Positions 26 to 60,822 of a stretch of 64,000 bases of DNA are shown here, in pieces. Origin of the DNA: Apostichopus japonicus (taxonomy: Eukaryota > Echinodermata > Holothuroidea > Aspidochirotida > Stichopodidae); the NCBI RefSeq assembly GCF_037975245.1, contig NC_092565.1, positions 13,917,499 through 13,981,498 of the forward strand, in the 5' to 3' direction. The notes beneath the pieces were generated by a model. That model did not search any database. It was given only the letters and a program-made list of their open reading frames with translations, and was not told where the DNA came from. Position 1 is the first letter of the stretch. Each line of letters starts with the position of its first letter. The position numbers and the translations under genes are program-made.

Positions 26-124
26 TGGCGCGATGGCTTGGCGCACTGTACGAGCTGATGAGCGAGACTCTCTTTTGCATCGGTGGTTCGAACCCCGGTG
101 ACGTGCGTCTTTTGCCGATCTTTT
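26..124 (+). promoter_or_regulatory. tRNA-like pol III boxes in a satellite monomer (first copy shown)
   Basis: In the first monomer TGGCGCGATGG (26-36) resembles an A box. GCGC/GCGC at 28-31 and 41-44 could form a tRNA D-arm around a loop containing GG. GGTTCGAACCC (85-95) matches the pol III B-box consensus. TTTT runs follow at 110-113 and, in long monomers, again at 121-124, where pol III would terminate. The same elements recur in nearly every monomer. No matching acceptor stem or anticodon arm is visible, so this is not an intact tRNA gene. Transcription is inferred only. Confidence 0.6.
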
Positions 125-6100: not shown

Positions 6101-9100
6101 GCTCGTGCCTACATGGGGAGCTGTAAGTATTAGTTAATCGGCCTAATATCTCAGTCCATACAGTGGCGCGATGGCTTGGCGCACTGTACGAGCTGATGAG
6201 CGAGACTCTCTTTTGCATCGGTGGTTCGAACCCCGGTGACGTGCGTCTTTTACAGCTCGTGCCTACATGGGGAGCTGCAAGTATTAGTTAATCGGCCTAA
6301 TATCTCAGTCCATACAGTGGCGCGATGGCTTGGCGCACTGTACGAGCTGATGAGCGAGACTCTCTTTTGCATCGGTGGTTCGAACCCCGGTGACGTGCGT
6401 CTTTTGCCGATCTTTTACAGCTCGTGCCTACATGGGGAGCTGTAAGTATTAGTTAATCGGCCTAATATCTCAGTCCATACAGTGGCGCGATGGCTTGGCG
6501 CACTGTACGAGCTGATGAGCGAGACTCTCTTTTGCATCGGTGGTTCGAACCCCGGTGACGTGCGTCTTTTGCCGATCTTTTACAGCTCGTGCCTACATGG
6601 GGAGCTGCAAGTATTAGTTAATCGGCCTAATATCTCAGTCCATACAGTGGCGCGATGGCTTGGCGCACTGTACGAGCTGATGAGCGAGACTCTCTTTTGC
6701 ATCGGTGGTTCGAACCCCGGTGACGTGCGTCTTTTACAGCTCGTGCCTACATGGGGAGCTGTAAGTATTAGTTAATCGGCCTAATATCTCAGTCCATACA
6801 TTGGCGCGATGGCTTGGCGCACTGTACGAGCTGATGAGCGAGACTCTCTTTTGCATCGGTGGTTCGAACCCCGGTGACGTGCGTCTTTTACAGCTCGTGC
6901 CTACATGGGGAGCTGTAAGTATTAGTTAATCGGCCTAATATCTCAGTCCATACAGTGGCGCGATGGCTTGGCGCACTGTACGAGCTGATGAGCGAGACTC
7001 TCTTTTGCATCGGTGGTTCGAACCCCGGTGACGTGCGTCTTTTACAGCTCGTGCCTACATGGGGAGCTGTAAGTATTAGTTAATCGGCCTAATATCTCAG
7101 TCCATACAGTGGCGCGATGGCTTGGCGCACTGTACGAGCTGATGAGCGAGACTCTCTTTTGCATCGGTGGTTCGAACCCCGGTGACGTGCGTCTTTTACA
7201 GCTCGTGCCTACATGGGGAGCTGCAAGTATTAGTTAATCGGCCTAATATCTCAGTCCATACAGTGGCGCGATGGCTTGGCGCACTGTACGAGCTGATGAG
7301 CGAGACTCTCTTTTGCATCGGTGGTTCGAACCCCGGTGACGTGCGTCTTTTGCCGATCTTTTACAGCTCGTGCCTACATGGGGAGCTGTAAGTATTAGTT
7401 AATCGGCCTAATATCTCAGTCCATACAGTGGCGCGATGGCTTGGCGCACTGTACGAGCTGATGAGCGAGACTCTCTTTTGCATCGGTGGTTCGAACCCCG
7501 GTGACGTGCGTCTTTTACAGCTCGTGCCTACATGGGGAGCTGCAAGTATTAGTTAATCGGCCTAATATCTCAGTCCATACAGTGGCGCGATGGCTTGGCG
7601 CACTGTACGAGCTGATGAGCGAGACTCTCTTTTGCATCGGTGGTTCGAACCCCGGTGACGTGCGTCTTTTGCCGATCTTTTACAGCTCGTGCCTACATGG
7701 GGAGCTGTAAGTATTAGTTAATCGGCCTAATATCTCAGTCCATACAGTGGCGCGATGGCTTGGCGCACTGTACGAGCTGATGAGCGAGACTCTCTTTTGC
7801 ATCGGTGGTTCGAACCCCGGTGACGTGCGTCTTTTACAGCTCGTGCCTACATGGGGAGCTGTAAGTATTAGTTAATCGGCCTAATATCTCAGTCCATACA
7901 GTGGCGCGATGGCTTGGCGCACTGTACGAGCTGATGAGCGAGACTCTCTTTTGCATCGGTGGTTCGAACCCCGGTGACGTGCGTCTTTTACAGCTCGTGC
8001 CTACATGGGGAGCTGTAAGTATTAGTTAATCGGCCTAATATCTCAGTCCATACATTGGCGCGATGGCTTGGCGCACTGTACGAGCTGATGAGCGAGACTC
8101 TCTTTTGCATCGGTGGTTCGAACCCCGGTGACGTGCGTCTTTTACAGCTCGTGCCTACATGGGGAGCTGTAAGTATTAGTTAATCGGCCTAATATCTCAG
8201 TCCATACAGTGGCGCGATGGCTTGGCGCACTGTACGAGCTGATGAGCGAGACTCTCTTTTGCATCGGTGGTTCGAACCCCGGTGACGTGCGTCTTTTACA
8301 GCTCGTGCCTACATGGGGAGCTGTAAGTATTAGTTAATCGGCCTAATATCTCAGTCCATACAGTGGCGCGATGGCTTGGCGCACTGTACGAGCTGATGAG
8401 CGAGACTCTCTTTTGCATCGGTGGTTCGAACCCCGGTGACGTGCGTCTTTTACAGCTCGTGCCTACATGGGGAGCTGCAAGTATTAGTTAATCGGCCTAA
8501 TATCTCAGTCCATACAGTGGCGCGATGGCTTGGCGCACTGTACGAGCTGATGAGCGAGACTCTCTTTTGCATCGGTGGTTCGAACCCCGGTGACGTGCGT
8601 CTTTTGCCGATCTTTTACAGCTCGTGCCTACATGGGGAGCTGTAAGTATTAGTTAATCGGCCTAATATCTCAGTCCATACAGTGGCGCGATGGCTTGGCG
8701 CACTGTACGAGCTGATGAGCGAGACTCTCTTTTGCATCGGTGGTTCGAACCCCGGTGACGTGCGTCTTTTGCCGATCTTTTACAGCTCGTGCCTACATGG
8801 GGAGCTGTAAGTATTAGTTAATCGGCCTAATATCTCAGTCCATACAGTGGCGCGATGGCTTGGCGCACTGTACGAGCTGATGAGCGAGACTCTCTTTTGC
8901 ATCGGTGGTTCGAACCCCGGTGACGTGCGTCTTTTACAGCTCGTGCCTACATGGGGAGCTGCAAGTATTAGTTAATCGGCCTAATATCTCAGTCCATACA
9001 GTGGCGCGATGGCTTGGCGCACTGTACGAGCTGATGAGCGAGACTCTCTTTTGCATCGGTGGTTCGAACCCCGGTGACGTGCGTCTTTTGCCGATCTTTT

Positions 9101-12100
9101 ACAGCTCGTGCCTACATGGGGAGCTGTAAGTATTAGTTAATCGGCCTAATATCTCAGTCCATACAGTGGCGCGATGGCTTGGCGCACTGTACGAGCTGAT
9201 GAGCGAGACTCTCTTTTGCATCGGTGGTTCGAACCCCGGTGACGTGCGTCTTTTACAGCTCGTGCCTACATGGGGAGCTGTAAGTATTAGTTAATCGGCC
9301 TAATATCTCAGTCCATACAGTGGCGCGATGGCTTGGCGCACTGTACGAGCTGATGAGCGAGACTCTCTTTTGCATCGGTGGTTCGAACCCCGGTGACGTG
9401 CGTCTTTTACAGCTCGTGCCTACATGGGGAGCTGTAAGTATTAGTTAATCGGCCTAATATCTCAGTCCATACAGTGGCGCGATGGCTTGGCGCACTGTAC
9501 GAGCTGATGAGCGAGACTCTCTTTTGCATCGGTGGTTCGAACCCCGGTGACGTGCGTCTTTTACAGCTCGTGCCTACATGGGGAGCTGTAAGTATTAGTT
9601 AATCGGCCTAATATCTCAGTCCATACAGTGGCGCGATGGCTTGGCGCACTGTACGAGCTGATGAGCGAGACTCTCTTTTGCATCGGTGGTTCGAACCCCG
9701 GTGACGTGCGTCTTTTACAGCTCGTGCCTACATGGGGAGCTGCAAGTATTAGTTAATCGGCCTAATATCTCAGTCCATACAGTGGCGCGATGGCTTGGCG
9801 CACTGTACGAGCTGATGAGCGAGACTCTCTTTTGCATCGGTGGTTCGAACCCCGGTGACGTGCGTCTTTTGCCGATCTTTTACAGCTCGTGCCTACATGG
9901 GGAGCTGTAAGTATTAGTTAATCGGCCTAATATCTCAGTCCATACAGTGGCGCGATGGCTTGGCGCACTGTACGAGCTGATGAGCGAGACTCTCTTTTGC
10001 ATCGGTGGTTCGAACCCCGGTGACGTGCGTCTTTTGCCGATCTTTTACAGCTCGTGCCTACATGGGGAGCTGCAAGTATTAGTTAATCGGCCTAATATCT
10101 CAGTCCATACAGTGGCGCGATGGCTTGGCGCACTGTACGAGCTGATGAGCGAGACTCTCTTTTGCATCGGTGGTTCGAACCCCGGTGACGTGCGTCTTTT
10201 ACAGCTCGTGCCTACATGGGGAGCTGTAAGTATTAGTTAATCGGCCTAATATCTCAGTCCATACATTGGCGCGATGGCTTGGCGCACTGTACGAGCTGAT
10301 GAGCGAGACTCTCTTTTGCATCGGTGGTTCGAACCCCGGTGACGTGCGTCTTTTACAGCTCGTGCCTACATGGGGAGCTGTAAGTATTAGTTAATCGGCC
10401 TAATATCTCAGTCCATACAGTGGCGCGATGGCTTGGCGCACTGTACGAGCTGATGAGCGAGACTCTCTTTTGCATCGGTGGTTCGAACCCCGGTGACGTG
10501 CGTCTTTTACAGCTCGTGCCTACATGGGGAGCTGTAAGTATTAGTTAATCGGCCTAATATCTCAGTCCATACAGTGGCGCGATGGCTTGGCGCACTGTAC
10601 GAGCTGATGAGCGAGACTCTCTTTTGCATCGGTGGTTCGAACCCCGGTGACGTGCGTCTTTTACAGCTCGTGCCTACATGGGGAGCTGCAAGTATTAGTT
10701 AATCGGCCTAATATCTCAGTCCATACAGTGGCGCGATGGCTTGGCGCACTGTACGAGCTGATGAGCGAGACTCTCTTTTGCATCGGTGGTTCGAACCCCG
10801 GTGACGTGCGTCTTTTGCCGATCTTTTACAGCTCGTGCCTACATGGGGAGCTGTAAGTATTAGTTAATCGGCCTAATATCTCAGTCCATACAGTGGCGCG
10901 ATGGCTTGGCGCACTGTACGAGCTGATGAGCGAGACTCTCTTTTGCATCGGTGGTTCGAACCCCGGTGACGTGCGTCTTTTACAGCTCGTGCCTACATGG
11001 GGAGCTGCAAGTATTAGTTAATCGGCCTAATATCTCAGTCCATACAGTGGCGCGATGGCTTGGCGCACTGTACGAGCTGATGAGCGAGACTCTCTTTTGC
11101 ATCGGTGGTTCGAACCCCGGTGACGTGCGTCTTTTGCCGATCTTTTACAGCTCGTGCCTACATGGGGAGCTGTAAGTATTAGTTAATCGGCCTAATATCT
11201 CAGTCCATACAGTGGCGCGATGGCTTGGCGCACTGTACGAGCTGATGAGCGAGACTCTCTTTTGCATCGGTGGTTCGAACCCCGGTGACGTGCGTCTTTT
11301 ACAGCTCGTGCCTACATGGGGAGCTGTAAGTATTAGTTAATCGGCCTAATATCTCAGTCCATACAGTGGCGCGATGGCTTGGCGCACTGTACGAGCTGAT
11401 GAGCGAGACTCTCTTTTGCATCGGTGGTTCGAACCCCGGTGACGTGCGTCTTTTACAGCTCGTGCCTACATGGGGAGCTGTAAGTATTAGTTAATCGGCC
11501 TAATATCTCAGTCCATACATTGGCGCGATGGCTTGGCGCACTGTACGAGCTGATGAGCGAGACTCTCTTTTGCATCGGTGGTTCGAACCCCGGTGACGTG
11601 CGTCTTTTACAGCTCGTGCCTACATGGGGAGCTGTAAGTATTAGTTAATCGGCCTAATATCTCAGTCCATACAGTGGCGCGATGGCTTGGCGCACTGTAC
11701 GAGCTGATGAGCGAGACTCTCTTTTGCATCGGTGGTTCGAACCCCGGTGACGTGCGTCTTTTACAGCTCGTGCCTACATGGGGAGCTGTAAGTATTAGTT
11801 AATCGGCCTAATATCTCAGTCCATACAGTGGCGCGATGGCTTGGCGCACTGTACGAGCTGATGAGCGAGACTCTCTTTTGCATCGGTGGTTCGAACCCCG
11901 GTGACGTGCGTCTTTTACAGCTCGTGCCTACATGGGGAGCTGCAAGTATTAGTTAATCGGCCTAATATCTCAGTCCATACAGTGGCGCGATGGCTTGGCG
12001 CACTGTACGAGCTGATGAGCGAGACTCTCTTTTGCATCGGTGGTTCGAACCCCGGTGACGTGCGTCTTTTGCCGATCTTTTACAGCTCGTGCCTACATGG

Positions 12101-15100
12101 GGAGCTGTAAGTATTAGTTAATCGGCCTAATATCTCAGTCCATACAGTGGCGCGATGGCTTGGCGCACTGTACGAGCTGATGAGCGAGACTCTCTTTTGC
12201 ATCGGTGGTTCGAACCCCGGTGACGTGCGTCTTTTGCCGATCTTTTACAGCTCGTGCCTACATGGGGAGCTGCAAGTATTAGTTAATCGGCCTAATATCT
12301 CAGTCCATACAGTGGCGCGATGGCTTGGCGCACTGTACGAGCTGATGAGCGAGACTCTCTTTTGCATCGGTGGTTCGAACCCCGGTGACGTGCGTCTTTT
12401 ACAGCTCGTGCCTACATGGGGAGCTGTAAGTATTAGTTAATCGGCCTAATATCTCAGTCCATACATTGGCGCGATGGCTTGGCGCACTGTACGAGCTGAT
12501 GAGCGAGACTCTCTTTTGCATCGGTGGTTCGAACCCCGGTGACGTGCGTCTTTTACAGCTCGTGCCTACATGGGGAGCTGTAAGTATTAGTTAATCGGCC
12601 TAATATCTCAGTCCATACAGTGGCGCGATGGCTTGGCGCACTGTACGAGCTGATGAGCGAGACTCTCTTTTGCATCGGTGGTTCGAACCCCGGTGACGTG
12701 CGTCTTTTACAGCTCGTGCCTACATGGGGAGCTGTAAGTATTAGTTAATCGGCCTAATATCTCAGTCCATACAGTGGCGCGATGGCTTGGCGCACTGTAC
12801 GAGCTGATGAGCGAGACTCTCTTTTGCATCGGTGGTTCGAACCCCGGTGACGTGCGTCTTTTACAGCTCGTGCCTACATGGGGAGCTGCAAGTATTAGTT
12901 AATCGGCCTAATATCTCAGTCCATACAGTGGCGCGATGGCTTGGCGCACTGTACGAGCTGATGAGCGAGACTCTCTTTTGCATCGGTGGTTCGAACCCCG
13001 GTGACGTGCGTCTTTTGCCGATCTTTTACAGCTCGTGCCTACATGGGGAGCTGTAAGTATTAGTTAATCGGCCTAATATCTCAGTCCATACAGTGGCGCG
13101 ATGGCTTGGCGCACTGTACGAGCTGATGAGCGAGACTCTCTTTTGCATCGGTGGTTCGAACCCCGGTGACGTGCGTCTTTTACAGCTCGTGCCTACATGG
13201 GGAGCTGCAAGTATTAGTTAATCGGCCTAATATCTCAGTCCATACAGTGGCGCGATGGCTTGGCGCACTGTACGAGCTGATGAGCGAGACTCTCTTTTGC
13301 ATCGGTGGTTCGAACCCCGGTGACGTGCGTCTTTTGCCGATCTTTTACAGCTCGTGCCTACATGGGGAGCTGTAAGTATTAGTTAATCGGCCTAATATCT
13401 CAGTCCATACAGTGGCGCGATGGCTTGGCGCACTGTACGAGCTGATGAGCGAGACTCTCTTTTGCATCGGTGGTTCGAACCCCGGTGACGTGCGTCTTTT
13501 ACAGCTCGTGCCTACATGGGGAGCTGTAAGTATTAGTTAATCGGCCTAATATCTCAGTCCATACAGTGGCGCGATGGCTTGGCGCACTGTACGAGCTGAT
13601 GAGCGAGACTCTCTTTTGCATCGGTCGTTCGAACCCCGGTGACGTGCGTCTTTTACAGCTCGTGCCTACATGGGGAGCTGTAAGTATTAGTTAATCGGCC
13701 TAATATCTCAGTCCATACATTGGCGCGATGGCTTGGCGCACTGTACGAGCTGATGAGCGAGACTCTCTTTTGCATCGGTGGTTCGAACCCCGGTGACGTG
13801 CGTCTTTTACAGCTCGTGCCTACATGGGGAGCTGTAAGTATTAGTTAATCGGCCTAATATCTCAGTCCATACAGTGGCGCGATGGCTTGGCGCACTGTAC
13901 GAGCTGATGAGCGAGACTCTCTTTTGCATCGGTGGTTCGAACCCCGGTGACGTGCGTCTTTTACAGCTCGTGCCTACATGGGGAGCTGTAAGTATTAGTT
14001 AATCGGCCTAATATCTCAGTCCATACAGTGGCGCGATGGCTTGGCGCACTGTACGAGCTGATGAGCGAGACTCTCTTTTGCATCGGTGGTTCGAACCCCG
14101 GTGACGTGCGTCTTTTACAGCTCGTGCCTACATGGGGAGCTGCAAGTATTAGTTAATCGGCCTAATATCTCAGTCCATACAGTGGCGCGATGGCTTGGCG
14201 CACTGTACGAGCTGATGAGCGAGACTCTCTTTTGCATCGGTGGTTCGAACCCCGGTGACGTGCGTCTTTTGCCGATCTTTTACAGCTCGTGCCTACATGG
14301 GGAGCTGTAAGTATTAGTTAATCGGCCTAATATCTCAGTCCATACAGTGGCGCGATGGCTTGGCGCACTGTACGAGCTGATGAGCGAGACTCTCTTTTGC
14401 ATCGGTGGTTCGAACCCCGGTGACGTGCGTCTTTTGCCGATCTTTTACAGCTCGTGCCTACATGGGGAGCTGCAAGTATTAGTTAATCGGCCTAATATCT
14501 CAGTCCATACAGTGGCGCGATGGCTTGGCGCACTGTACGAGCTGATGAGCGAGACTCTCTTTTGCATCGGTGGTTCGAACCCCGGTGACGTGCGTCTTTT
14601 ACAGCTCGTGCCTACATGGGGAGCTGTAAGTATTAGTTAATCGGCCTAATATCTCAGTCCATACATTGGCGCGATGGCTTGGCGCACTGTACGAGCTGAT
14701 GAGCGAGACTCTCTTTTGCATCGGTGGTTCGAACCCCGGTGACGTGCGTCTTTTACAGCTCGTGCCTACATGGGGAGCTGTAAGTATTAGTTAATCGGCC
14801 TAATATCTCAGTCCATACAGTGGCGCGATGGCTTGGCGCACTGTACGAGCTGATGAGCGAGACTCTCTTTTGCATCGGTGGTTCGAACCCCGGTGACGTG
14901 CGTCTTTTACAGCTCGTGCCTACATGGGGAGCTGTAAGTATTAGTTAATCGGCCTAATATCTCAGTCCATACAGTGGCGCGATGGCTTGGCGCACTGTAC
15001 GAGCTGATGAGCGAGACTCTCTTTTGCATCGGTGGTTCGAACCCCGGTGACGTGCGTCTTTTACAGCTCGTGCCTACATGGGGAGCTGCAAGTATTAGTT

Positions 15101-15576
15101 AATCGGCCTAATATCTCAGTCCATACAGTGGCGCGATGGCTTGGCGCACTGTACGAGCTGATGAGCGAGACTCTCTTTTGCATCGGTGGTTCGAACCCCG
15201 GTGACGTGCGTCTTTTGCCGATCTTTTACAGCTCGTGCCTACATGGGGAGCTGTAAGTATTAGTTAATCGGCCTAATATCTCAGTCCATACAGTGGCGCG
15301 ATGGCTTGGCGCACTGTACGAGCTGATGAGCGAGACTCTCTTTTGCATCGGTGGTTCGAACCCCGGTGACGTGCGTCTTTTACAGCTCGTGCCTACATGG
15401 GGAGCTGCAAGTATTAGTTAATCGGCCTAATATCTCAGTCCATACAGTGGCGCGATGGCTTGGCGCACTGTACGAGCTGATGAGCGAGACTCTCTTTTGC
15501 ATCGGTGGTTCGAACCCCGGTGACGTGCGACTTTTACAGCTCGTGCTTACATGGGGAGCTGTAAGTATTAGTTAAT

Positions 15577-15751
15577 CGGCCTAATATCTCAGTCCATACA
15601 GTGGCGCGATGGCTTGGCGCACTGTACGAGCTGATGAGCGAGACTCTCTTTTGCATCGGTGGTTCGAACCCCAGTGACGTGCGTCTTTTGCCGATCTTTT
15701 ACAGCTCGTGCCTACATGCTCGTGCCTACATGGGGAGCTGTAAGTATTAGT
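15577..15751 (+). repeat. Degenerate terminal satellite monomer at the array edge
   Basis: The last monomer differs from the consensus (A at 15673) and carries a tandem duplication of GCTCGTGCCTACAT near 15705-15732. The preceding monomer also has private changes at 15530 and 15547. The repeat stops after GTATTAGT and is followed by ACGTCTTTTGCCGAACTG, which resembles the internal ACGTGCGTCTTTTGCCGAT of the monomer. Divergence concentrated at the edge fits reduced homogenisation there. Confidence 0.85.
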
Positions 15752-29599: not shown

Positions 29600-32500
29600 A
29601 TGAAATCTTTTCAAGTGAAATCATCTTTCTACGGCTTCGTGCTGACTGTTCTAATAATGTCGATGTCGAGAGCTGCAGATGCGGAAGGCGAACAAGGGTA
29701 GGACGTAAACAATCTCAATAAAGAAATGAGAACGATTTAGTCTAACAGTAACAATTAATGCATACTTGTATTACTATTTATAAGTAAGTATAGCATGGTG
29801 GGCTCATAATTGACGCACTTAAGGATTTGATAAACGATGTCTATCAAGGAAAAATCCAAATCTCTCAACTGTATGCGTTTTTAGTATGTGTAGTTCCCAG
29901 AAATCCAATGATTTCAAAATATTCATTGTTCTGTGCCAACACAACTAAAAATTGAGCAGAATATGACCACAAAATGTCTGCCGTGTCAAGTTTTTTCATA
30001 CCCCGAAATTGACACATTCGTCGAAAGCTAACTAACTTTTGTGTAAGTATACATCCAGTGACTCTGGATGCTGTTTGCTATTGTCTGAGCCTCTTAGCTC
30101 CGACAGGTCAGGTCCCATGGAAGAGTAATGGTATCATATTGAGGTTAGTTTGGTTATTTTTTGGGAGTAGGCTAATTAGATTTTCAAATTCCAAAAATAC
30201 CACAAAAATATATAGATGGTTGGTTTGCGTCTATCTTGGCGCAGAGTGCTCTTTGTCTGGTGGACAGAGCTAAATATATGTTCTGGAACAGTTGTCTGAT
30301 GATCGCTCAATGTGTGAAACTCTTGAGTAACAACTACTAGTGTTCAACTAGTCTCAACATACATACACATCTTTCAACATGTAGCATGGTAGGCTCATAA
30401 TTGACGCACTTAAGGATTTGATCAACGATATCTATCAAGGAAATAGCCAAATCACTCGACTGTATGTGTTTTTCATATGTGTAGTTCCGCAGAAATGTTA
30501 TGATCTCAAAATATTTAAGGTTCTGTGCTTATGCACCGTACAATTGAGCAGAATTTGACCACAAAATGTCTGCCGTGTCAAGTTCTTTCATACCCCTAAA
30601 TTGACACATTCGTTGTAAAGCTAACTGTAGTGTAGGCCTTAGTATACATCCATTGACTTTAGATGCTGTTTGCTATGCTCTGAGCCTCTAAGCTCAGACT
30701 GGTCAGGTTCCAGAAAGCAGTGTTATCATATTGAGGTAATGTTGGTTATTTTTAGGGAGTAAGATATCCAAATGACCAAAAAATGTGCAAAACTGGTGGG
30801 AGGGTGTTAAAACCTTAAAAAATAACACAATTTGGTCAGCAAATAGCTGAAATGGATTCAAACTCATGAAATATGTCATTCTGCTTGACTGCAAAAAGTT
30901 TAGGTGGCCTGCTGTATCGTTGCTAGTAATAATTGAAGGTGCGTCAATTACGGGGGTGCGTCAATTATGAAGCCTTTACTATATAGCAATTTGCCACATC
31001 TTGCTTAGCATTTTGAGATGCAATACCGGATAAATTATTTCCTGGGTTTCATGGTAGTGAGAAGAAGTAAGTAACTATATAGCTAGAACTAACTTAGAAG
31101 TATCAATTTATGGTCAAGATTTTCTCCACTTTTGTTTTCCACAAATATCTGCAATTTCTTGTTTGGTGACCCTAAAGAGGGCCACAACCCCATTCCTCAT
31201 TCCCCTCCCCCCCCCCCCCCTTCTACCACAACCACTCTCGCTATATTGTTTGTTTATACTCACAATTTGACATTTTCCTGTAGATTTGCATCACAGTGCT
31301 TCCAAGGTTCATTGATACTTGATCAAAGCAATAAGATAAAACTTGCTGAAAGTTGGGCCAACGTTCAAGTGACACCATGTACAGGTAAGGGAAGAACCAC
31401 TACAATGGAACCTACAACAATGGAACCTACGACAATGGAACCTACGACAATGGAACCTACAACAATGCAACTTACAACAATGGAACTTACAACAACGGAA
31501 CTAACAACAATAGAACTTGCATCTACCACTAACACATCTACCACTTCAACTAATAAACCATTGACATCGACTGACATGATGACAACTAGCACAACCGAAC
31601 CACCAGCCAAAGCAGACAATACAACGGAGACAGGTAGAAAAAGAAGGGCTGCTGCTGTTTCTCCAGAAATGGAAGATAAATTCTATTGTCAAGTCTTTTA
31701 CTACCCTAACGATGACTCTCCAAAACTGAAAATAGATTCAGCTTCTACTCTAGACTTTTCTTGCACCCAAGAACCCGATTCAGACTGTCTGGATGGTAGT
31801 GCAGTAAATAAAACGGTAAGGAAAAATAATATCATGCCCGAAATATGACATTATTTTAATTACTGTCATTTTTTTGGTTGGTAGCAAATTTTTAACTGAT
31901 CTATATTAAATTTAGGTCAAATGTTACTTAATGATAACACCTACAGGAGTATCAAACCTAGGCTTTGCTCAATTCTTCACTCATGCTTTGTTGTCTCTGA
32001 TAAATATTTCAGTAAACTATAGTTCATACTTAAGCATACTCTTTCCTGGAAATGCTTCTCTTTTTCTTGATACAAGAGATGCAGTTTCCAGCTAAATTTA
32101 GTTCATCAAGGATAATGAAACTTCAGAAATGCATATAAAAACCTTGTACAACACTTTTAATTTAATCCAGTGAGTAGTGGGTCAGTGGGATATATCATTC
32201 CTAGCCCCAATGTTAACAACAAGTAGTTTGCTTTAGTTATTCAATCATGTATGCATGCATTTAGTCATTCATTCTTGCTTTCTTTGTGATTTGGGATCCC
32301 AGAGTTGTCATCCTCTCTACAATTACAATAAACAATTAGGTCCTTCTTGAAAGCCACTAAGCTCTGATTCAAAGAAAAGTTTCCAAACCCTATTTTTTTC
32401 TTCATCACAAGATCGAACCCCCTTTCATTTCATCACAAAATTTGAGGTACCCACGTACATTCTAAACGATTCATGAACCTCTTTCACCTTCAATCCACCG

Positions 32501-35500
32501 TCTTCAACAGTATTAAATAAACTTGTTCGCTTAATACTTCTACCAGGGTTGCCTGACCACATAAAATTAGCCATCACACGTTCAACTTCTTTTATTAAGC
32601 TTGATTTGGCAGAAATAGAAAGAGGTAAGCTACCTGCAAGAGCAAGTGTCTTTACGATAACACTTCAACCTTCTGCAGTGAGATCCAGAGAGGACCAAAC
32701 CCAAAGGCAGTTTTGTAGGCGTGATAGTTTCGGCACAAGGTTTAGCCAGAAAAGATCATATGTTTGTTTGTTTGTGTTCTGTTTGGATGCTTATTTATTT
32801 ATTTATTTGGGGGGGGGGATAGTTGGATTGGGAAAATTTGCATTCAGTAGTAATTCTATAGTATTTCATCAATATGTCTACAAACTTCCCATGCTCTACC
32901 CTGCCAATCACACTGAACTTTAGCGCCAGTGTTTACAAATGCATGCAACATGGTTTCAAACAGTACTAAATTTCCTGTAAAGTTAGAAATTTGAATTGCT
33001 ATTGATGTCCAAATTATTAAGTATCACAGTAATGTAGGTTCTGTTCTGTAGGTCAAAGTAACTTTCACAAATATTTCATCATGCACTTTGCAAAGAACCT
33101 TCCAAATTCTTTTTTTTTTTTTTTTGACTTCACAGATTGATGGCAAGACTGGAAAACTCTATTGCTGTAAGAATGACAACTGCAATTCCCCTTCCCTGGT
33201 AACCAGTGATCCATCTAACGGTGTTGAAGTAGAAACTCTGTCAAAGTGTGACCATTACAGTTCAGAAGGTCAGTAAATATTAATAAAAACTTGATTAATT
33301 CCTTCTTTTAAAGCGGCTGATTGTACTCTCAGAAGGAACCGTTCACGTAAACATTTCTTGTCCAAGTTCAAGGAGTAAATTGTTCCGGTATCGCATTGTA
33401 AAATGCTGTGCAAAATGTTCAAATTGCTATACATGTGAGAAGCAGCTGTATAGCAGTTCTTTTCCACCGTTACCATAGTTACCATGGTATTGTTGAACAC
33501 TACATTATTCTCTTCCATTGCAGACAGCTGCTTTTAAATTTAGTGTCAGTGTTAAACAGCATATTTTGCCTTGGTCAGCTCTGTTGTGGTTAACAAATCT
33601 GATCAAAAGGAAAAGGTTGTTTTATTTTTGGCCTCCTGGTGTATATCTTAAAGTGTGTGAAGATTCGCGCAAAAAGAAACGTCTAATACCGGTAATCTGA
33701 CCTAGTTTCGAATGAGGTGTAACAGAAGTGTTAGACGCCACCATCAATCCCAGAAAATACACACACAGCTTGCTACCGTCGATAATTAGACACTAGTGTA
33801 CAGTCAGTAAATACAGTTGCGGTCAATACCCACAGCACAATGTAGAAACGATACAGCCATGGACATCTCAGGTCCAGCTAAATATAACAAGTTATCATGT
33901 TTCATTACTGTCTGCATTTTGTAGCGACACGAACAAAACGTCACTTGCAAGCAACGGAAAGTTAACTTTTTCAGATGGCCGCACGCGGTTTGGGGCGAGT
34001 CTTCAATGCTTTTAAGGGGCAATGGAACTATATAGAAGGCTGCAGGAATCCTGGTGTTGTTTCACTACATACCATTCCTTCAAATAACTGAAGGTGGTAG
34101 TTCTGGCTAGCATTTCTTGCCCGGCTACATTTGCACCGTAAGACAGATCAAGTCTGTCGTCTCACGATACATTAGTCTGTAGGAAGAAAATTAGTGTTGA
34201 TGGGCAAAGCTGTATCTCTCACACTGTTGTTTTTACATTAGTAGGAAGAAAATTAGTGTTGATGGGCAAAGCTGTATCTCTCACACTGTTGTTTTTACAT
34301 TAGTAGGAAGAAAATTAGTGTTGATGGGCAAAGCTGTTTCTCTCACACTGTTGTTTTTACATTAGTAACAAGAAAATTAGTGTTAATGGGCAAAGCTGTA
34401 TCTCTCACACTGTTGTTTTTACATTAGTAGGAAGAAAATTAGTGTTGATGGGCAAAGCTGTATCTCTCACACTGTTGTTTTTACATTAGTAGGAAGAAAA
34501 TTAGCGTTGATGGGCAAAGCTGTATCTCTCACACTGTTTTTTTTTGGATGTTGTACTCAAAGTCAACTACAAATTCCAAACCATTGCTGTCTTGTTTGAC
34601 AGAAGCTCTGTTCTAGCTGTGACGAGTTTTGAGAACTAGACGCTGTGACATGAATTTGCCAATACTGTCACATGATGCAATGCCTTCCTAATGGGTCTTT
34701 GGAAATAGCCACACACATAAATGATTAATTGTAGAAAATCCAGTGACTTTTTTTCTTTAATCCTCTTTCTCATTGTTATTTTAGGTTATTAAAAAAACAA
34801 TTATGGCTGAAATCTGTATGCTACAAACAATCCAGAAGAAGTAACTTAAAAGAAGCGTTGTAATATTATATCTGACCTCTGACCTCCGAATACCCTTTGT
34901 ACACTGAGAATTCTGTCTCTATACTGAAATATAACAACAATGACTTGCTTTAATAATATGGAGCCAAACAGTGTAATGTTTCCCCAACGTATTTTCTAGG
35001 TATTTTCTCTGTATCCCGAGAAGTCATGCAAGAACTCCCCCTCAACGATCTCGTGTGGAACGTCTTTGAATTTCGTCTCGTAAGATTATTTAGTAGACTT
35101 AGACTGGGAGGCTGTACGTTCATTATATAATATCATGGGTGTTTAACAAGAGGTCGGCGAATTAGGCCCACCAAACAGGATCTTCCATCACGACATATTC
35201 ACCACTCATCAGGCCTTTAGATTATATGCTCAGAATGCATGGAAAACTTGCTTACAAGTGCTATGGGAATAATCGTAACAAAACAAATTATCAACTTATT
35301 TGATCTCCATGAATAAAGACAAGCTCCGAAATTGTAGATAAATTTACAGACTCATGAAAAATCACACAACCCACCGACAATTTGTGGAGATTATTGGGTC
35401 GCACCTCACGGTTTATTTACTGTTGATGTCTGACGAACCTATCCCTTAATCATTTTAAGGAATGCAACAGATGCACTGGTCATTGACAAACAACAGTCCA

Positions 35501-37954
35501 ATATATTTTACTTGTACCTGAATGATGTAATCTAGTATCTATGGTACCTTAGGAAAAGAACTGATTTCCAACTAGTCTGCTAAAGCCATAGCCAACTAGT
35601 CAATTAACACGTAAACAAATCCGCAATAATATTTTAAAATCAAATACTTAACACATATATACCTTCACATGCTCTCTCTCTTTCTCTCCGAAAAGGTAAT
35701 ATTTTATCAACAATCAACAAGATGACTCTTTATACCACATGAAAGACATATTAGTCCATTGTTACATAAAACATACTTTTCAGGGTGATACCAAATGTCA
35801 AACACATTTTTATGTAACTGCAAGGCAAAGTATTCTGACTCTTTCTGGTTATCCTTTAGACCACCATGTGTTATGTTTTAATTGTCCAAAAGCAAACTTG
35901 AGTGTCCCAAGAAATGTTGCATGTAATATTAAAGAATGCATGACCCATATGTGTATTGTAGGACAGATCTTGTGTAGCTTTGGTGAATAGAACACCCTGC
36001 AGCTTTGGGCCAGTAAAAACGCAGCTTCAGGTGGACCATGGGTCTACCACAAAATTTTGTTATATTTCTTATTTTTATGTACGTACATCCAAGAGTGACG
36101 TAGGAGGAGGGTGAATGTAATCCAATTTATACCATTTTAACCTATTTGTGGGTAAATTAGTTTACAATGCAGTCTGAATTTGGATGTTAACAACTAGTCA
36201 TCCACGGGACAACCTACAACGCTGATGTTGGTTGTTCTCACAAATATTGTCGTCTGGGACGACCATTAAAAAGTTTGCCCTGGACTGACATATTTATTCA
36301 GCTCTATGTCCAACAAATTGACTAAGTCTTCAAGCCTTTTAACATACTGCTTCCCTAAACCGTATGGCTTGTCAGTATCGCTCGACTAATTCGTCTGAAC
36401 TATCGTGATGTTTGGAAGATCACTGGAAATGGAATTAATATGATGGAAAACAGAATGATAAATATTGTGCATGTCCTATTGCAACTTTCCAGGAAACTGC
36501 CAAAACTGCTTCTCATCGTTGCTGGGATTTTTTGCCCCCATGACTTGTAAAATCGTTCATATTTTCTGTTCGTCATATATAATTGCACATTTTCAGTTCA
36601 TGGAAACAACCTAAAGAAAAAGCTTTCCATTTTTTGGTGTTTTTTTTCAGGATTCTTACCAGTCTTTTGTCTCTATGAATCTCATCTATGTGTCAACTAT
36701 ACAAGAAATGGGACAACATCCTATTACTGTGGAAACAAACAAACAGAAGGTCATTGCATAAAGGACAACTGGTATGCTGAGACCTGTTCAGCACCTGATG
36801 CCATGGTAAGTTGAAATCTGCCATTTTGTGAAAACGCCTTTGAAAGTAGTTGAAATTTTGACGAACAGTGCCAAAAAATTAGAAATCTGATGCAGCCTCT
36901 TTGGAAAATTGGGAGATTTAACCTGATTTTCTTATTAATGTCAGAGTAAAAATATATTCCAATTGTTCTGAAGTTCTAGATCTTAGAAATGAAATAGTTA
37001 TTTTACTTCTGTTGTTTTGTGTTTCAAATCAGACTTTTTACAATTCTTTTCTGATTGACTTTCTTTACAACAAATTCTGAGTAATTAATTGATACAATTG
37101 AACTTCTTTTGAGAATTGGAGCATATAACTAATAATAATAATAATAAAAATAATAATAATAACAAATATTGTCATTTTCGCCATGGCCATCATCATCCTA
37201 ATAATAATAATATAATGACAATAATGATACTAGTAGTAGTAATAATAGTAGTGGTCATTGCTCTAAAAGTATGGTCTGTGAGTTGTCATTGTTAGCTGAC
37301 ACACTTTACCGTGTTTGAAGTTATTGGAGATTCTTGAGCTGGTCTTGGGAGATCATAAAGTGATAAGAGCCATCCATTTCTTTCATATTTAGTGGTACAT
37401 ATTTTTTGTAGTGATTTCATGCGACACCATTGCTTCTTTCTGTAGCGAGTGGCGTCATAAAACCCCTGCATTGTTTAGCTGTAGCCCTTATTGGATGGAA
37501 ACCATTTTTCACTTGATATTCTTAATTATAGTAATTGTTATGGTAGCATACCAGGGACATCACAGTGACAACTTAACACACATTGTAAAAAAGTGAAAGT
37601 TACCACTGTACTATTTTAGGGTTTTAAGGTTTACTGTCAATGAACTGCTCTGTGTGAGCTACTGGAGGTTTATCTGCTCCAGTAATATTGTTAGCTGGTG
37701 TATGTATTTTCAGGAATATGCCAGTAAGTACTGGAGTTTTTTGCCCGTGGAATTTTTAAGTACTTGGATTTTGTTTTAGCAAGTGGCTAAAATTGAGAAA
37801 ATCTAGGCCTGTAGTAGTAGTAGTCTTAGTAGTAGTAGTGGTAGTAGTAGTAGTAGTGGTAGTAGTGGTGGTAGTAGTAGTAGTAGTAGTAATAGAAGTA
37901 GTTTTAGTAGTAGTAGTAGTACTTGTAGTAGTAGTACTTGTAGTAGTAGTACTT

Positions 37955-37997
<43 letters not shown>

Positions 37998-40900
37998 AAG
38001 TAGTGTTAGTAGTAGTAGTAGTAGTAGTACTTGTAGTAGTAGTAGTAATAGTAGTAGTGATAGTAGTAGTAGTACAGTTTAGTGGTTGTTGTTGTCTTTC
38101 TCTTCTATACCTTTAACGATTCCTTATTTTGATTGGAGGGCAATACCACTTGTTGTCAATGAAAATCCCTGCGTGAACTTTCCTGCAGCTTAAAGGTTTT
38201 CTGTTATCACCATTTGTACCTTGAATTCAACCATTTCCTGTTTTCATAGGGGGGTACCATTTGCTGTCATTTACCTGAAGATCCTCCTAAGAATCCTACT
38301 ACTGTGAGTATTAAAGAAGAAATATTTCGTCAGTGTTCACCTTTATCATGATTTTGAGTACAGTGTTTACTGTGCAACATACGCCCCCTCCCGCACACTC
38401 ATTCACTGATTCAGAGGAAGATGGAGCTCTTTCTTTATTCAGCCTGTAAATACACAACAATCTTTCCCCCCTCATAATATCACAGTTTATCAATATCAAT
38501 TTATCATCAATGTGCATAGCAAGTTACAGAATTGAATATTATTTGATAAATGTCCATTCAGCCTTGTCATCTTCGTTCCTTTCTTCAATACCCAAGTGTT
38601 AAATCATGCAGTCCAGTGAGTGGTATTATGACTGACCTCCAGTGACTGACCTCCAGTGGCAACCATTATATATCAGAAGGATAACAGATTATCTGTACTT
38701 CATAAAGCAATTAATGGAAAGACTGCTATTCCTATCCCATCCTACATTAAGAAGCCAGCTCGTACAACTAGACAACTCAATCAAGCTAAGTTCATCCAAC
38801 CTCGCTGTAAAACAGATGATTACAAATATAGTTTTTTTTTTCGAGAACGATAACACATTGGAACTCTTTGCCTCCAGAATTGATTTCAATAACGTCTGCT
38901 GACAATTTCAAGGTGAAAACATCTAGGTACTTAGCAGAGATTTAATATGCAACACATGACTTGGTGATGTCACTAATCAACCTTTGCGAGATGGACACCA
39001 GTCTATTGCAGAGCATCGATGTAGATGTAGTACTATGACTCTAAACTTTCTCTGGGATTTCAACTCTGAGATCCCAAAATTAGAATCCCTTCTTCAAAGA
39101 CTTAGCTCACTCGATTCCTTTTTACCTAATTTTGTCAAATGCCTCCTTATACGTGACAATCTTTATTCTGAACATTTCTTATAATTTTAATGTCCTGGAA
39201 TAGGGTTGGGCGATATATGGAAAATTATTATTATCGCGATAATTTTTTTTCAAGACGATATTTTTTGAGGATTGAACAAATGACGATAATTTCTTGTGAA
39301 AGAAATTTGAAATAAATGTGGAAAAAATGCGATTATCAGGCGCGTATCCGGGGGGGGGGGCGTTGGGGGCGCGCGCCCCCCCGGGTAAGAAAAAGAGGAG
39401 AGAAAAAAAGAGAAGAAAAAAAGGAAAAAAGAGGGAGAAAAAAAGAGGAGGAAGGAGAGGAAGGAAGGGAAAAAAAAAGAAGAAAGAGAGAAAAGGAGAA
39501 AAAGAGGGAGTAGAAGATAAACGCCAAGATACCGGGAAGAGAAGAGGAACAGTCATAATTACAGCGCTGATCACTATTATATACACAGGGTAGCCAGTGA
39601 CGAATCGCGGATTACGGAAGGGGTGTGCGCCTCACCCTTCCCCTTACACCGACCAACTCCATTTTTGACGTTTCCATTTTTCCTCTCTCACTAATGTAGA
39701 TATCTATATATATATACCGGTGTAACAGGAAATTTCCCCCCCCCCTGAAAATTTTCCCCCCCGGGTGGGGATTTTTCCTAGGATAAATTCCCCCCACCCT
39801 GAAAATTTACCCCCCCACCATAAGCATGATCAATTTTTCTGCCAGCACCTGCAAGTCTTTAGCTTGCAATGAATTTCATAATATTCCTATATTCCAATAG
39901 GCGATATCTCAAATTCAGTGTATGATGAGATGGTCGATCGCTTGTTCATGGCAATTAAACGCTAGGAATATATCCTTCACGTATTCGCAACATTTTTTTA
40001 GTGGCCAGCGAACAGTGTGTTGCAAAGATTGGTGCAATTTGTTTCTTCAAATCATTCACAGAATAAAGTTTATCCACAGTGAAGTTTACTAGTTTTAAAT
40101 ATCAAATATGTTTCGAACGTTATCAGCAAATCTATCACTTCCTTCAGTCTCCATGATGTAAATTGAAAATTTGTGATGACCAGGGCATTTGGGTCCACTC
40201 TATATACCCAACATTCCCACACCATATCAATCAGGACTATCTGTGTAACAGTATGTATAACTTGCTTCAGTGCAGCAATCCCTTTGATGTTCACCCTCAT
40301 AAGCCATGAATTAAGATAATCCCATTGAGCTTCACCACAGCTCATAATCAATAATCAATAAGTCAACCCCTTCCCAATAAACATTGAATCCTCCTGTGGA
40401 ACCATCATACCAACACAATGTAATAGTTTCAATTTACAATGATTATACTTGACTACATCAGTAACATCAGAGCATCAGAGCTAGTCCCATTCCATTCATG
40501 GCACTGCATTCATGGCCTAACCCTAACCCAAGACATTTCCTCTGAATATCCTTATTGCAGGAATGATATATTCCAAGTTCATGCCCAAAAAATGTTAAAA
40601 TCTCCTTATTATAGTTCCATGATGAGATATCCTTGATAGGTGTACAAAAAAAATAATAAACTAGAATTACATGAAGGTGGGGGGGGGGGGGGGAATTTTT
40701 CCAGGTTGGGGGAATATTTCCTAGGAATAATGCCCCCCCGGGGGGAATATTTCCTAGGTAATCTCCACCCGGGGGGAGAATTTTCTAGGAAATATTCCCC
40801 CCGGGGGGGAATATTTTCAGGAGGAAAAAAATCCTGTCACACCAGTTCTATATATGATAACGAGTGTGTGTGTATGGACGCCTTAAATTGTACAATTGTG

Positions 40901-46900: not shown

Positions 46901-49593
46901 GAAAAATTCACGCGAAACTGGCATATCTTGCTGATTGCATCTAATGTCATGTAAAAAAGGCTCTAGTACACCCATTTATGAATAAACCATAAGACCACAT
47001 CTGGTGTTAAGCGTGGGGAGAAGAAAGTATTTTCTAGAATTTCCACAAAAAAATGGAAAAAATAATATCCTACGATAGTTAAGTGTACAGTAAATTGCCT
47101 AACCACTTTGTCGGTTACGGATCTCACGTAACAACAAAAACACTACTAATTTTTATTTTTTGCGAAGTTGACGTTATCTACAACGACATGAAAACAATAT
47201 TTAGCATATAGTTAATCATGCCAAGGGGCCTAAAACACGGGAATGCAAGGTTTACTTTCATAAAGATGGCCATACTGTAGCTACAGTATTAGGGCCAATT
47301 GATATCGTGCTATGTCTGTATGGTATAGACTGTGCCTCGTATATTCAAGGGGAATAGATTGTTTTGTTCATGCGGAGGAGTCGCTTGACTTGAGGTGTGT
47401 TTTACTTACGAGGATGTTTACCTACTTTTCTCGAACGTCTAAGATAATATTGCGCATAACTTACCTGATCCTTTACTGACTGATCTAATTAATTCTAGAG
47501 TTGAGCCAAATAGTTTACTCCTTGAAAACTTTTTTGGAAACGTGCCAAAAATGTTAGCAAACAGGTGTTAGACGGGGGGGTTGTTTGGCAAGGTACCTGG
47601 GAAAATTCGCAGCACATATAGCCAGCCTACCGTGATATTTAAGTTGTAAACTGATGTACGTATAGTGCACATTGTTAGGCAGTCTAGAAATGGGGCTTTG
47701 CCGAACGCAGTTTGTTTCATAATATCGACAGTTTTGTAAGTTAAACTTTTTAAAGATTTTAAGACAGATTACATCTCTTTTCATTTTGTCACATAAGATA
47801 GCTACTCTAACTTGTCATTTTAAAAATTTTCATCAATTTCGTGACAATTTAAATTCAAAAAGTTGTCAGTATTTTGAATCCTCAACTGCGAATTTTTTAT
47901 CGCCAGACACGCAAAAATACTAAATTTTCCGGGGGCCTTCGCCCCTGGACCCCCACAAGGGGTTCCACCCCTTGACCTCACCGGGCCCTAAGGTGGGCCT
48001 CTGGACCCCACGCCATTATTCTCGCACGCAATGCGTGCTCGGTGTGTTCGCTGCGCGAAAACACCGGTGGGAAACCGGCAGTTGTTTTAAGTGTGTTCGG
48101 GAACACACTAAAAACAACAAGGAAAATTATCGAAATATCGCGATAATTTTTGAACTATTTATCGTGACGTTAAAAAGCAAATATCGCCCAACCCTATCCT
48201 GGAATGCATGTAAATGTGACATAGTTGTTAGTGGTCACAAAAATTTTGTAAGAAGCTACTAACATGTTAGGCTATAGGCCAGCGGTTCTCAAGTCATTTT
48301 CTACGAGGGCCAGGGAGAGACATTGGTTGGACCATTTTGGCCCTGAGAGAGAATCAAATTCTCACTACACTTTCGAATATGTTCTAAGACGTATTATTAA
48401 GGCACACCTAATTAGTTCAAGATTGTGCTCCTGTTTAAAAAAGAGCCCGAATCTTCCACCAACCGGATTTGGCCTGCATGCCACCTATGGAGAACCCCTG
48501 GGCCATATACTACGCACAAACACTTTCAAAAGAGTTTATGGATCTTCATGTTCTTAAAAAAATTCGTAAATAGGATGCCTCTCTCAATACCATCCTAATT
48601 GCCAGTGTGAGGGTAGACCTCAGCTGCCTTACATTAGTAATCAAACATTCCTTTTAAGTTTTGTTGGAGTTTGATGTTGCTTCATAGCTCGATTGGATGA
48701 TGCTTCTTATTGATGATGATTTATTTGTTTCAACACATAGTAATACAAGATGAACAAGACAATATAACTGCAAATAAGTAAAATATGTGAAAGGAAGTAA
48801 ACTGAGAAACCCTTGTGGGCTTAATCTAATGGTAGTCCCATCAAAGAAAATAGAAAACCTTAACACCTAAAAAAGAACCCACCCCTCCCCAAAAAAAAAC
48901 AGATAACCTTAACAAATAAGACAAATAACACTACCCCCCCCCAATTAATCACAAACTAACTGCATAATTTTTGATGTACAAATATATGCCAATTGGTCAA
49001 GCAGATATTGAAAAGTTCTTATGAGGTCATCAGAGAACATCAAAATGTCAGAATACTTGTACATGTATGTTCTATCTCAAAGGACAATTCTATGGGATCT
49101 GAAAGTTGACATGCAAATACCGATATGATTTTGAGTATACGAAACTGACTGTTTTTGTCAAAAGGTCTTAGATATGAGGTCACCAGAGGTCATATCTCAA
49201 CAAGTACAACTGTCAACTTGTAAAAATGTAATTCTTTTTACATCCATGTCCAAGAGTAGAAGGAGGAACCCCTATTGATCTGAAATAAATGTACAGTACC
49301 TCTAATTTGGTTGTCGTTCGTTTGTCCTCATTCAGGCCCTCACCACAGCAGGTCCTACAGCAGGTCCTACAGCAGGTCCTACAGCAGGTCCTACAGCTGC
49401 CGGACATAGCCAAGTGGTCACGGTCCTGATTTTTGTGTCTGTGGCCTTCGTAGTCGGCGCCACCATCGGATGTGTGCTGCTTGTAGTGGTACAGAAGAAA
49501 TGCAAGAAAAGGCCCGCTTTTGATGACATGATGGACTTCAGTTACAGTCGATTCCAGTCAGCAGAGAGTGGTGCAGACGATCTGGAATTGTGA
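29600..49593 (+). CDS. Single-pass membrane protein with two Ly6/uPAR-like cysteine modules and a mucin stalk
   Basis: Six exons join in phase: 29600-29697, 31284-31815, 33136-33268, 36651-36805, 38250-38303 and 49336-49593. They encode 409 aa. Residues 1 to about 26 form a signal peptide. Module 1 has eight cysteines ending in CCKNDNCN, the Ly6/uPAR-type CCxxDxCN signature also seen in TGF-beta-receptor ectodomains. It is split by a Thr-rich segment with RKRR at 151-154. Module 2 (exons 3-5) has several cysteines and ends in ICC but lacks the final CN. Sequons include NKT, NYT and NGT. A TAGP-repeat stalk leads to a transmembrane helix (351-376), then a 33-residue tail with basic residues, YSRF (394-397) and an acidic C-terminus. 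There is no kinase domain. I know no named family with this layout. Role inferred: surface receptor, co-receptor or decoy. Further exons could hide in the 11-kb last intron. Confidence 0.78.
29791..30981. mobile_element. TIR element with an internally duplicated ~385-bp block
   Basis: CTCATAATTGACGCAC near 29812 is matched in inverted orientation by GTGCGTCAATTATGAAG at 30956-30972. Both are close to TA dinucleotides, as in Tc1/mariner-type elements. The left part (29791 to about 30170) is repeated directly at 30382 to about 30762, offset 591 bp, with moderate divergence. It therefore looks like two copies in tandem or one nested in the other, with only one right end. No transposase is visible. 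It lies in intron 1 of the membrane-protein gene. Confidence 0.7.
31385..31666 (+). other. Candidate exitron (in-frame internal intron) encoding the mucin stalk
   Basis: Inside exon 2 a strong donor (ACAG/GTAAGG at 31385) and an acceptor with a pyrimidine-rich lead (TTTCTCCAG ending at 31666) bound exactly 282 nt, or 94 codons. Splicing it would keep the frame and remove residues 67-160, meaning the whole Thr-rich stalk and the RKRR site. That would leave a compact eight-cysteine module of ordinary Ly6 length. The open frame through the segment means the unspliced form is also translatable. RNA evidence is needed. Confidence 0.6.
31398..31513 (+). repeat. Coding minisatellite, 15-bp unit (TTMEP repeats)
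   Basis: The unit ATGGAACCTACAACA repeats about eight times with decay toward the 3' end, encoding Thr-Thr-Met-Glu-Pro and variants. It forms the O-glycosylation-prone stalk in the membrane protein and is likely length-polymorphic. Confidence 0.85.
31816..33135 (+). other. Intron 2 of the membrane-protein gene
   Basis: This AT-rich intron has a TTTA run and G tract near 32795-32818 and a T-run before the acceptor (33109-33125). Short open frames near 32549-32923 lack homology that I recognise. I see no exon or mobile element. Confidence 0.6.
34181..34547 (+). repeat. 62-bp tandem repeat, about six copies
   Basis: Copies of the AGGAAGAAAATTAGTGTTGA unit start at 34181, 34243, 34305, 34367, 34429 and 34491. 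The spacing is exactly 62 bp with very few changes. It is a minisatellite in intron 3 of the membrane-protein gene. The rest of that intron (33269-36650) shows nothing I can name. Confidence 0.93.
37128..37260 (+). repeat. AT-rich trinucleotide microsatellite (TAA/ATA)
   Basis: Interrupted runs of TAA lie in intron 4 of the membrane-protein gene, separated by a short unique stretch and ending in TAG/TAA mixtures. Confidence 0.8.
37811..38075 (+). repeat. (GTA)n microsatellite
   Basis: About 265 bp of GTA/TAG repeat with scattered interruptions lies in intron 4 of the membrane-protein gene, about 175 bp before exon 5. The poly-valine frame it contains is a by-product of the repeat. Confidence 0.95.
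38637..39030 (+). mobile_element. 5'-truncated LINE remnant, C-terminal end of reverse-transcriptase ORF
   Basis: Translation gives LHKAINGKTAIPIPSYI, then PARTTRQLNQ, then TDDYKYSFF. After a frameshift at a T-run (38829-38840) it continues RTITHWNSLPPELI and ends at a stop near 38943. The KYSFFPRTI..WNSLP pattern is the usual C-terminus of CR1/L2/RTE-type LINE ORF2 proteins. The rest of the ORF is missing and the frame is broken, so it is inactive. It lies in intron 5 of the membrane-protein gene. Confidence 0.8.
39337..39540. mobile_element. GC-rich TIR end plus purine-rich tract, incomplete copy
   Basis: CAGGCGCGTATCCGGGG starts at 39337 and is followed by alternating G/C runs and about 150 bp of almost pure A/G on the plus strand. 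It matches the left half of the element at 46390. No right end is visible nearby, so the copy is truncated. Lysine/arginine-rich frames here come from the purine tract. Confidence 0.65.
39719..40843. mobile_element. 1.1-kb TIR element with G/C-run termini
   Basis: GGTGTAACAGGA (39719-39730) is matched in inverted orientation by TCCTGTCACACC (40832-40843). The subterminal parts mirror each other, with C-rich blocks at 39737-39825 and G-rich blocks at 40676-40815, each with TTCCTAGG-type spacers. No coding region or clear target duplication is seen. It is nested in the 9-kb element. Confidence 0.7.
42080..43115. repeat. Dispersed-repeat fragments ending in a TIR right end
   Basis: A block containing GCTCCGCGCCAACCGATGG occurs at about 42138 and 43034, with similar flanks on both (GAAGTGTCTTTTCC and GAAGTGCCATTTCC). 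The second copy runs into GGGTGAGAAAATCCTGGATACGTGCCTG, ending at 43115, which resembles the right end of the element at 46390-46676. These are partial copies of one GC-rich TIR family. Confidence 0.6.
43246..43284. repeat. Short near-perfect palindrome
   Basis: GGTATACCCATGGAGCT and AGCTCCATGGTATACC pair across a 6-base loop, with one extra C in the left arm. It lies in the 9-kb element with no gene next to it. Confidence 0.75.
43285..46389. other. AT-rich interior of the 9-kb element
   Basis: This stretch has no recognisable coding region on either strand. A CA-rich stretch near 43490-43545 is a weak microsatellite. Short frames show no transposase, helicase or polymerase motif. Confidence 0.55.
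46390..46676. mobile_element. GC-rich CAG..CTG MITE, complete
   Basis: The ends are CAGACGCGTATCCAGG and CCTGGATACGCCCCTG (inverted), spanning 287 bp, with a purine-rich middle of about 170 bp and a C-run before the right end. The ends resemble those of the 19077-19369 element, so it is probably hAT-related. The flanks do not show an obvious 8-bp duplication. Confidence 0.75.
46677..48180. other. Right interior of the 9-kb element
   Basis: This is AT-rich to about 47880, then GC-rich with short inverted runs such as GGGGTTCCACCCC (47950-48110), leading into the right terminal repeat. No gene is seen. Confidence 0.5.
48280..48500. mobile_element. hAT/Charlie-like MITE
   Basis: CAGCGGTTCTC (48280-48290) is matched in inverted orientation by GAGAACCCCTG (48490-48500). 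CAGxGGTTCTC..GAGAACCxCTG is the known end type of Charlie-like hAT elements. The 221-bp element carries no transposase. No clear target duplication is visible. A 97-codon frame across it is incidental. Confidence 0.7.
49345..49392 (+). repeat. Coding minisatellite, 12-bp unit x4 (TAGP)
   Basis: Four perfect copies of ACAGCAGGTCCT lie at the start of the last exon and encode the Thr-Ala-Gly-Pro juxtamembrane stalk, directly before the transmembrane helix of the membrane protein. Confidence 0.95.
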
Positions 49594-60789: not shown

Positions 60790-60822
60790 ATGCCCGTAGT
60801 TATGACATGGCTAATCCTTTAA
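60790..60822 (+). promoter_or_regulatory. Upstream ORF overlapping the main start
   Basis: An ATG 17 bases before the main start opens a 10-codon frame that ends at TAA (60820-60822), overlapping the main ATG at 60807 in another frame. The main ATG has the better context (GACATGG). Overlapping upstream frames commonly lower translation, so this could tune expression. Confidence 0.5.

Follow-up and report, generated by a model that had tools for sequence, protein, structure and literature searches.

The question raised by this locus of the sea cucumber Apostichopus japonicus is whether one short segment can serve both as protein-coding sequence and as an intron. In the window (the whole stretch of DNA that was analysed, 64,000 nucleotides at C5:13917499-13981498), the segment lies at positions 31385-31666 of the forward strand within a predicted coding exon. 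It starts CAG/GTAAGG, with the donor GT at 31385-31386, and ends TTTCTCCAG/A, the acceptor being GGCTGCTGCTGTTTCTCCAG/A with its AG at 31665-31666. The sequence-only reading had described a GTAAGG donor at 31385 and an acceptor at 31666 enclosing 282 nt, a multiple of three, and these coordinates and the frame proved exact. It had further proposed that excision rejoins the cysteines of one module and drops a Thr-rich stretch. This was borne out by the translation, as excision fuses ...VTPCT with EMEDKFYC... in frame and shortens the inter-cysteine distance from 102 to 8 residues. The segment has two features of exitrons, namely GT-AG borders within a predicted coding exon and the absence of stop codons when retained.

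A six-exon gene model was assembled manually on the basis of phases and splice sites, and all of its exons are predictions on the forward strand. The coding part of exon 1 (29600-29697), placed by its translation and its in-frame join to exon 2, starts with a signal peptide assigned by eye (MKSFQVKSSFYGFVLTVLIMSMSRAADAEGEQ...) and ends in phase 2 at a GTAGGA donor at 29698 (score 6.9). Exon 2 (31284-31815, 532 nt), recognised by its open frame, carries the start of LU-like module 1 and the 282-nt segment, and lies between an acceptor CCTGTAG/A ending at 31283 and a donor ACG/GTAAGG at 31816. Exon 3 (33136-33268), which has a phase 0 acceptor and an in-frame join, encodes the remainder of module 1 (YCCKNDNCN) and a linker containing a ninth cysteine. 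Exon 4 (36651-36805; acceptor 11.9, donor 9.9), located through a genome search and tblastn, starts a divergent LU-like module 2 in frame (FCLYESHLC...ETC), and the 54-nt exon 5 (38250-38303), also in frame, ends it (GGTICCHLPEDPPKNPTT). Exon 6 (49336-49593) adds 85 in-frame residues up to a TGA stop, comprising TAGP repeats, a TM helix assigned by eye and a 33-residue tail. The product has 409 residues, or 315 without the segment, in the order signal peptide, module 1, module 2, Thr/Pro TAGP-repeat stalk, TM helix and tail, and is probably a cell-surface protein.

Several repeats were seen in and around this gene. The TAGP stalk of the last exon is encoded by a perfect 12-nt repeat (4.4 copies, 49345-49397), a second in-frame minisatellite stalk of the gene. 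Intron 1 contains near-identical stretches at 29790-29860 and 30380-30450, about 590 bases apart (by eye), and intron 3 a 62-bp tandem repeat (5.9 copies, 96% matches, 34179-34544). Intron 4 contains (GTA)n, with 88 copies at 37811-38074, which is open on both strands and reads poly-Thr-like in reverse. Elsewhere in the window, a 154-bp satellite array (99 copies, 96% matches) occupies positions 119-15689, with a GC content of about 0.52 compared to 0.35-0.41 in 4-kb steps after 16 kb. A 578-residue open frame at 60747-62483, which by eye has many Ser and acidic residues, had no Pfam family above cut-off.

If retained, the candidate exitron, which is entered in phase 1, would encode a 94-residue insert with 33 Thr, 8 Pro, no Cys, two N-glycosylation sequons and the motif RKRR, the only R-x-K/R-R site within module 1 and one that we take to be of furin type. 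A 15-nt minisatellite at 31394-31516 on the forward strand (Tandem Repeats Finder; 8.3 copies, 89% matches, no indels) encodes TTMEP-like repeats within it. In the compact form, module 1 has spacings of 26, 8, 24, 7, 18, 0 and 4 between its first eight cysteines, and the ninth follows in the linker. Retention separates two of these cysteines and turns the spacing of 8 into 102, whereas excision gives an LU-like spacing. An LU-type cysteine pattern ending CC-x4-CN was accordingly found in the compact form and not in the full form. When the LU-like regular expression, which was made by hand after the sequence had been seen, was applied to permutations, 9 of 200,000 matched. In an LU numbering that is our own assignment and that rests on the cysteine pattern, the predicted module 1 is split between C4 and C5 and is completed by exon 3. 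The usual LU disulfide pairing is 1-5 and 4-6, and with this pairing the two chains would stay joined after cleavage at RKRR. The insert is placed between C4 and C5 because the 2-3 pair is taken as absent, as in the type II receptors BMPR2 and ACVR2, which are described as having lost the 2-3 disulfide (PMC6600238).

The claim that the protein belongs to no known family held as far as Pfam is concerned, with no family reaching cut-off in the 315- or the 409-residue form, and has to be qualified by the LU-like cysteine pattern. Neither UPAR_LY6 nor Activin_recp was listed for either whole form in Pfam; the sub-cut-off matches of these forms to TMEM154, INO80_Ies4, H_PPase and PT repeat were taken as chance or composition. 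Activin_recp was weakly matched by the compact form of exons 1-5 (E 7.8, 8 bits against a cut-off of 20.9, residues 36-135) and not by the full form of exons 1-5; the match deserves little weight because it was unlisted when all 315 residues were scanned. Among solved structures, the compact protein of exons 1-3 had no match up to E 10, and the full protein had one, between its Thr-rich stretch and decay-accelerating factor (E 7.6). When profiles were compared with three ActRII-type sequences, the compact and full forms had the same E of 0.021, over the last 33 columns only, and 9 columns were aligned for module 2.

The same genome contains an ActRII-like exon (C4:27613476; stretches L010 and L024) that matches ActRIIA (1bte) with E 2e-11. 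Module 1 shares with this exon, and with ActRII/BMPR2 ectodomains, an LU-type cysteine pattern. Compared with an ActRII-type domain, the compact form aligned along the domain with 21% identity (tblastn E 0.11, in a small database), and the full form aligned only in pieces. Unlike ActRII/BMPR2, the candidate has two modules, a short tail and no cytoplasmic Ser/Thr kinase, the frame of the model stopping 33 residues past the TM helix; the similarity is weak and gives no family assignment. Membership of the TGF-beta receptors was rejected, as the kinase is absent from the model and the Pfam match was far below cut-off and unstable.

Searching the genome with the compact module returned three matches that are the gene itself, a 31-residue match on contig C10 (E 0.23) and a match on C17 (E 3.7). 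The C10 fragment (L020, 9908-9991) shares 54% identity with the core of module 1 across 28 residues and is perhaps a decayed relative. A stop lies upstream of this fragment and inspection by eye gave no clear splice acceptor, so that it is uninformative on the intron. No paralogue among the own-genome matches showed an intron at the position of the segment. A search with PF01064 gave two matches below cut-off, and one with PF00021 a single match just above it (25.2 against 24.8 bits) that contains an internal stop. Exons 4-6 gave five more matches (E 0.005-6), the best of which, on C8, looks by eye like an EGF-repeat protein. The lack of a family match above cut-off is what one would expect if the gene model were wrong or a pseudogene, with exon 2 and its neighbours unexpressed. 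We consider this highly improbable, since the six exons are phase-compatible from signal peptide through TM helix to stop, with no internal stop.

No stop interrupts the segment when it is read in the frame of exon 2 (from 31285), while the other two forward frames contain 5 and 7. Of 35,322 overlapping 282-nt frames in the window that were presumed to be noncoding, 272 (0.77%) were open. After dinucleotide shuffling, the whole segment stayed open in 12 of 5,000 cases and the non-repeat part alone in 355 of 5,000 (7%). In a wider control (parts of the window plus seven stretches, some of them exon-bearing), 860 of 93,252 frames were open, none of them with 33 in-phase AC dinucleotides. Outside the repeat array, 15 of these threonine-type dinucleotides are in the coding phase and 3 in each of the other two (binomial P 4e-4), and all four third letters occur. 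As many in-phase AC were present in 22 of 132,720 control frames of 150 nt, all within a single Thr-rich exon-like frame of contig C3, a stretch that had entered the control through its match to the segment. This C3 frame (L025, 6953-7117, minus strand) has TTMETT repeats and belongs to an apparently unrelated gene. On the open-frame and Thr-phase statistics, the segment looks coding.

These statistics bear most directly on the explanation that the segment is an ordinary intron, always excised, so that only the 315-residue compact protein is made, and that its length and open frame came about through the minisatellite or recent intronisation. Its splice sites match the strength of the others in the model, the flanking pieces (101 and 149 nt) are near the other internal exons in size (133, 155 and 54 nt), and the LU-like pattern is found in the compact form. 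Intron sequence here can also be open: read in the frame of exon 2, intron 1 has 63 stop-free codons at its 3' end. The points against this explanation are the rarity of open 282-nt frames in the control (0.77%, yet 7% of the non-repeat shuffles), the threonine-type triplet phasing, and the size of the other introns of the model, which span 1.3-11 kb. Overall, we regard an ordinary intron as unlikely.

Splice sites were scored with a generic matrix not trained on A. japonicus. The donor of the segment scored 12.2, the best in the model, the five others scoring 6.9, 9.9, 8.5, 9.9 and 6.6. The acceptor GGCTGCTGCTGTTTCTCCAG, with its polypyrimidine tract (31647-31666, forward strand), scored 9.8, inside the range of the five others (5.0, 10.4, 11.9, 10.2 and 10.8). 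The donor agrees with CAGGTAAGT at 8 of 9 positions, compared to 5-7 for the other donors of the model, and this agreement was reached by 30 of 13,901 GT sites in control sequence (candidate included). The splice control consisted of 236 kb strand-bases, namely the window from 16,001 plus seven 10-kb stretches, on both strands and with the candidate included; all seven stretches surround search matches and are thus a non-random sample. Eight donors and 77 acceptors in this control reached the scores of the candidate. They formed three pairs spaced 60-482 nt, of which the candidate alone had a length divisible by three; the two others both lie in L024, the stretch with the ActRII-like exon. Such a pair was contained in 70 of the 22,752 overlapping control windows of 532 nt, and 25 had a pair with a length divisible by three, necessarily the candidate.

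Exon 2 was also recoded synonymously, counting recodings with a pair at least as strong and at least 60 nt apart. This occurred in 0.39% of 20,000 recodings with the codon usage of the gene, in 26 of 10,000 with uniform codons and in 56 of 10,000 with the codons of the other exons. With spacing divisible by three as well, the figures were 0.025%, 1 of 10,000 and 0 of 10,000, respectively. The splice-site pair thus exceeds what coding constraint gives (0.26-0.56% of recodings) and is more than chance, although the effective odds are weaker than these raw figures because the finding had been preselected for its splice sites.

This result weighs against a constitutive coding exon, in which a mucin-like loop would always be part of module 1, possibly with disulfides holding it after a cut by a furin-type protease, and the splice signals would be accidental or unused. 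The placement of both sites within one inter-cysteine interval, with an LU-like spacing on excision, is also not what that explanation would predict. It does account for the open and Thr-phased frame, for an in-frame minisatellite without indels, and for the similar TTMETT repeat in the other exon-like open frame on C3. The branch-point region is in its favour too. No yUnAy consensus branch point was found within 92 nt of the acceptor, the nearest being 93 nt upstream, with nine AGs between it and the acceptor. The last AG before the acceptor ends at 31646, leaving an AG-free stretch of 18 nt compared to 26, 37, 38, 52 and >98 nt in the other introns of the model. This poor region weakens the case for efficient splicing, and fits partial splicing and equally none. 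We regard a constitutive exon as a lesser possibility.

The segment at 31385-31666 is in our judgement a good candidate for an exitron, a reading in which we place about even confidence; this grading and those of its rivals are judgements and not computed posteriors. Both statistical tests, of the splice-site pair and of the coding signal, point to an exitron rather than to either of the main rivals, each of which needs a rare event that the exitron avoids: chance splice sites for the constitutive exon and a chance-open frame for the ordinary intron. Exitrons are, however, a minority class. Under the exitron reading, the segment would be both protein-coding and spliceable as a U2-type intron. 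When retained, it would give module 1 a mucin-like, furin-site insert of 94 residues between the fourth and fifth LU cysteines. When spliced, the halves would rejoin at VTPCT/EMEDKFYC in a compact LU-type domain with eight pattern cysteines, resembling the ActRII/BMPR2 ectodomains without the 2-3 disulfide. A strong donor and a good pyrimidine tract combined with a poor branch-point region may result in partial splicing, which would therefore be adjustable, as we propose, by factors that bind pyrimidine tracts or CUG. Two elements of the acceptor tract, GCTGCTGCTG and TTTCTCC, are taken here to resemble MBNL/CELF and PTB motifs and may be a lead towards regulation. For the earlier proposal of an exitron with two ectodomain forms, the anatomy and the statistics on the splice-site pair and on coding stand. 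Splicing, coexistence of both mRNAs, regulation of a switch, and effects on binding, glycosylation or cleavage are what we infer. Three cassette readings were discarded: joining exon 1 to the acceptor at 31667, or the donor at 31385 to exon 3, breaks the frame by phase, and joining that donor to exon 4 keeps the frame and loses the remainder of module 1.

Exitrons have been described in Arabidopsis and human as segments with GT-AG borders within coding exons (Marquez et al. 2015, PMC4484396). According to that description, about 55% of human exitrons have a length divisible by three, an excess, their splice sites tend to be weaker, and most of an analysed set were traced to ancestral coding sequence (PMC4484396). 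The candidate is like them in being a stop-free GT-AG segment of a predicted coding exon, a multiple of three in length, that would give an internal deletion if spliced, and unlike them in that its donor and acceptor are strong, like constitutive sites, and its splicing is predicted (PMC4484396). No report of an echinoderm exitron was found in the literature searched, which also held nothing on exitrons together with mucins, as judged by titles and the starts of abstracts. For activin-receptor splicing, nothing was relevant by title among the matches listed.

Among LU proteins, SP-10/ACRV1 is described as having a disordered N-terminal extension that is varied by alternative splicing of exon 2 (PMC6600238). 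The candidate would likewise be an LU protein with a disordered segment of splice-variable length, but the segment of SP-10 precedes the LU domain, whereas the sea-cucumber insert would interrupt C4-C5 (PMC6600238). In another echinoderm, the starfish Asterias rubens, 48 three-finger (LU) proteins have been reported, three of them with two LU domains (PMC11595613). The candidate is like these proteins in that some have two LU domains and some a TM segment; the likeness excludes gene structure, as the words intron and exon do not occur in the part of the text that was available (PMC11595613).

Taken further, the segment could be a splice-controlled fold switch between an intact three-finger module and one opened by an insert between two core cysteines, an idea that we hold as doubtful. 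The insert would be mucin-like, furin-cleavable and variable in length through its 15-nt VNTR, and RNA processing would choose between a binding domain and a glycosylated, cleavable receptor surface. If the exitron is real, it would interrupt the core of a disulfide-rich domain and bring glycosylation and protease sites into it. This would extend what is described for LU proteins, as the splice-variable disordered segment of SP-10 adjoins its domain and does not lie inside it (PMC6600238).
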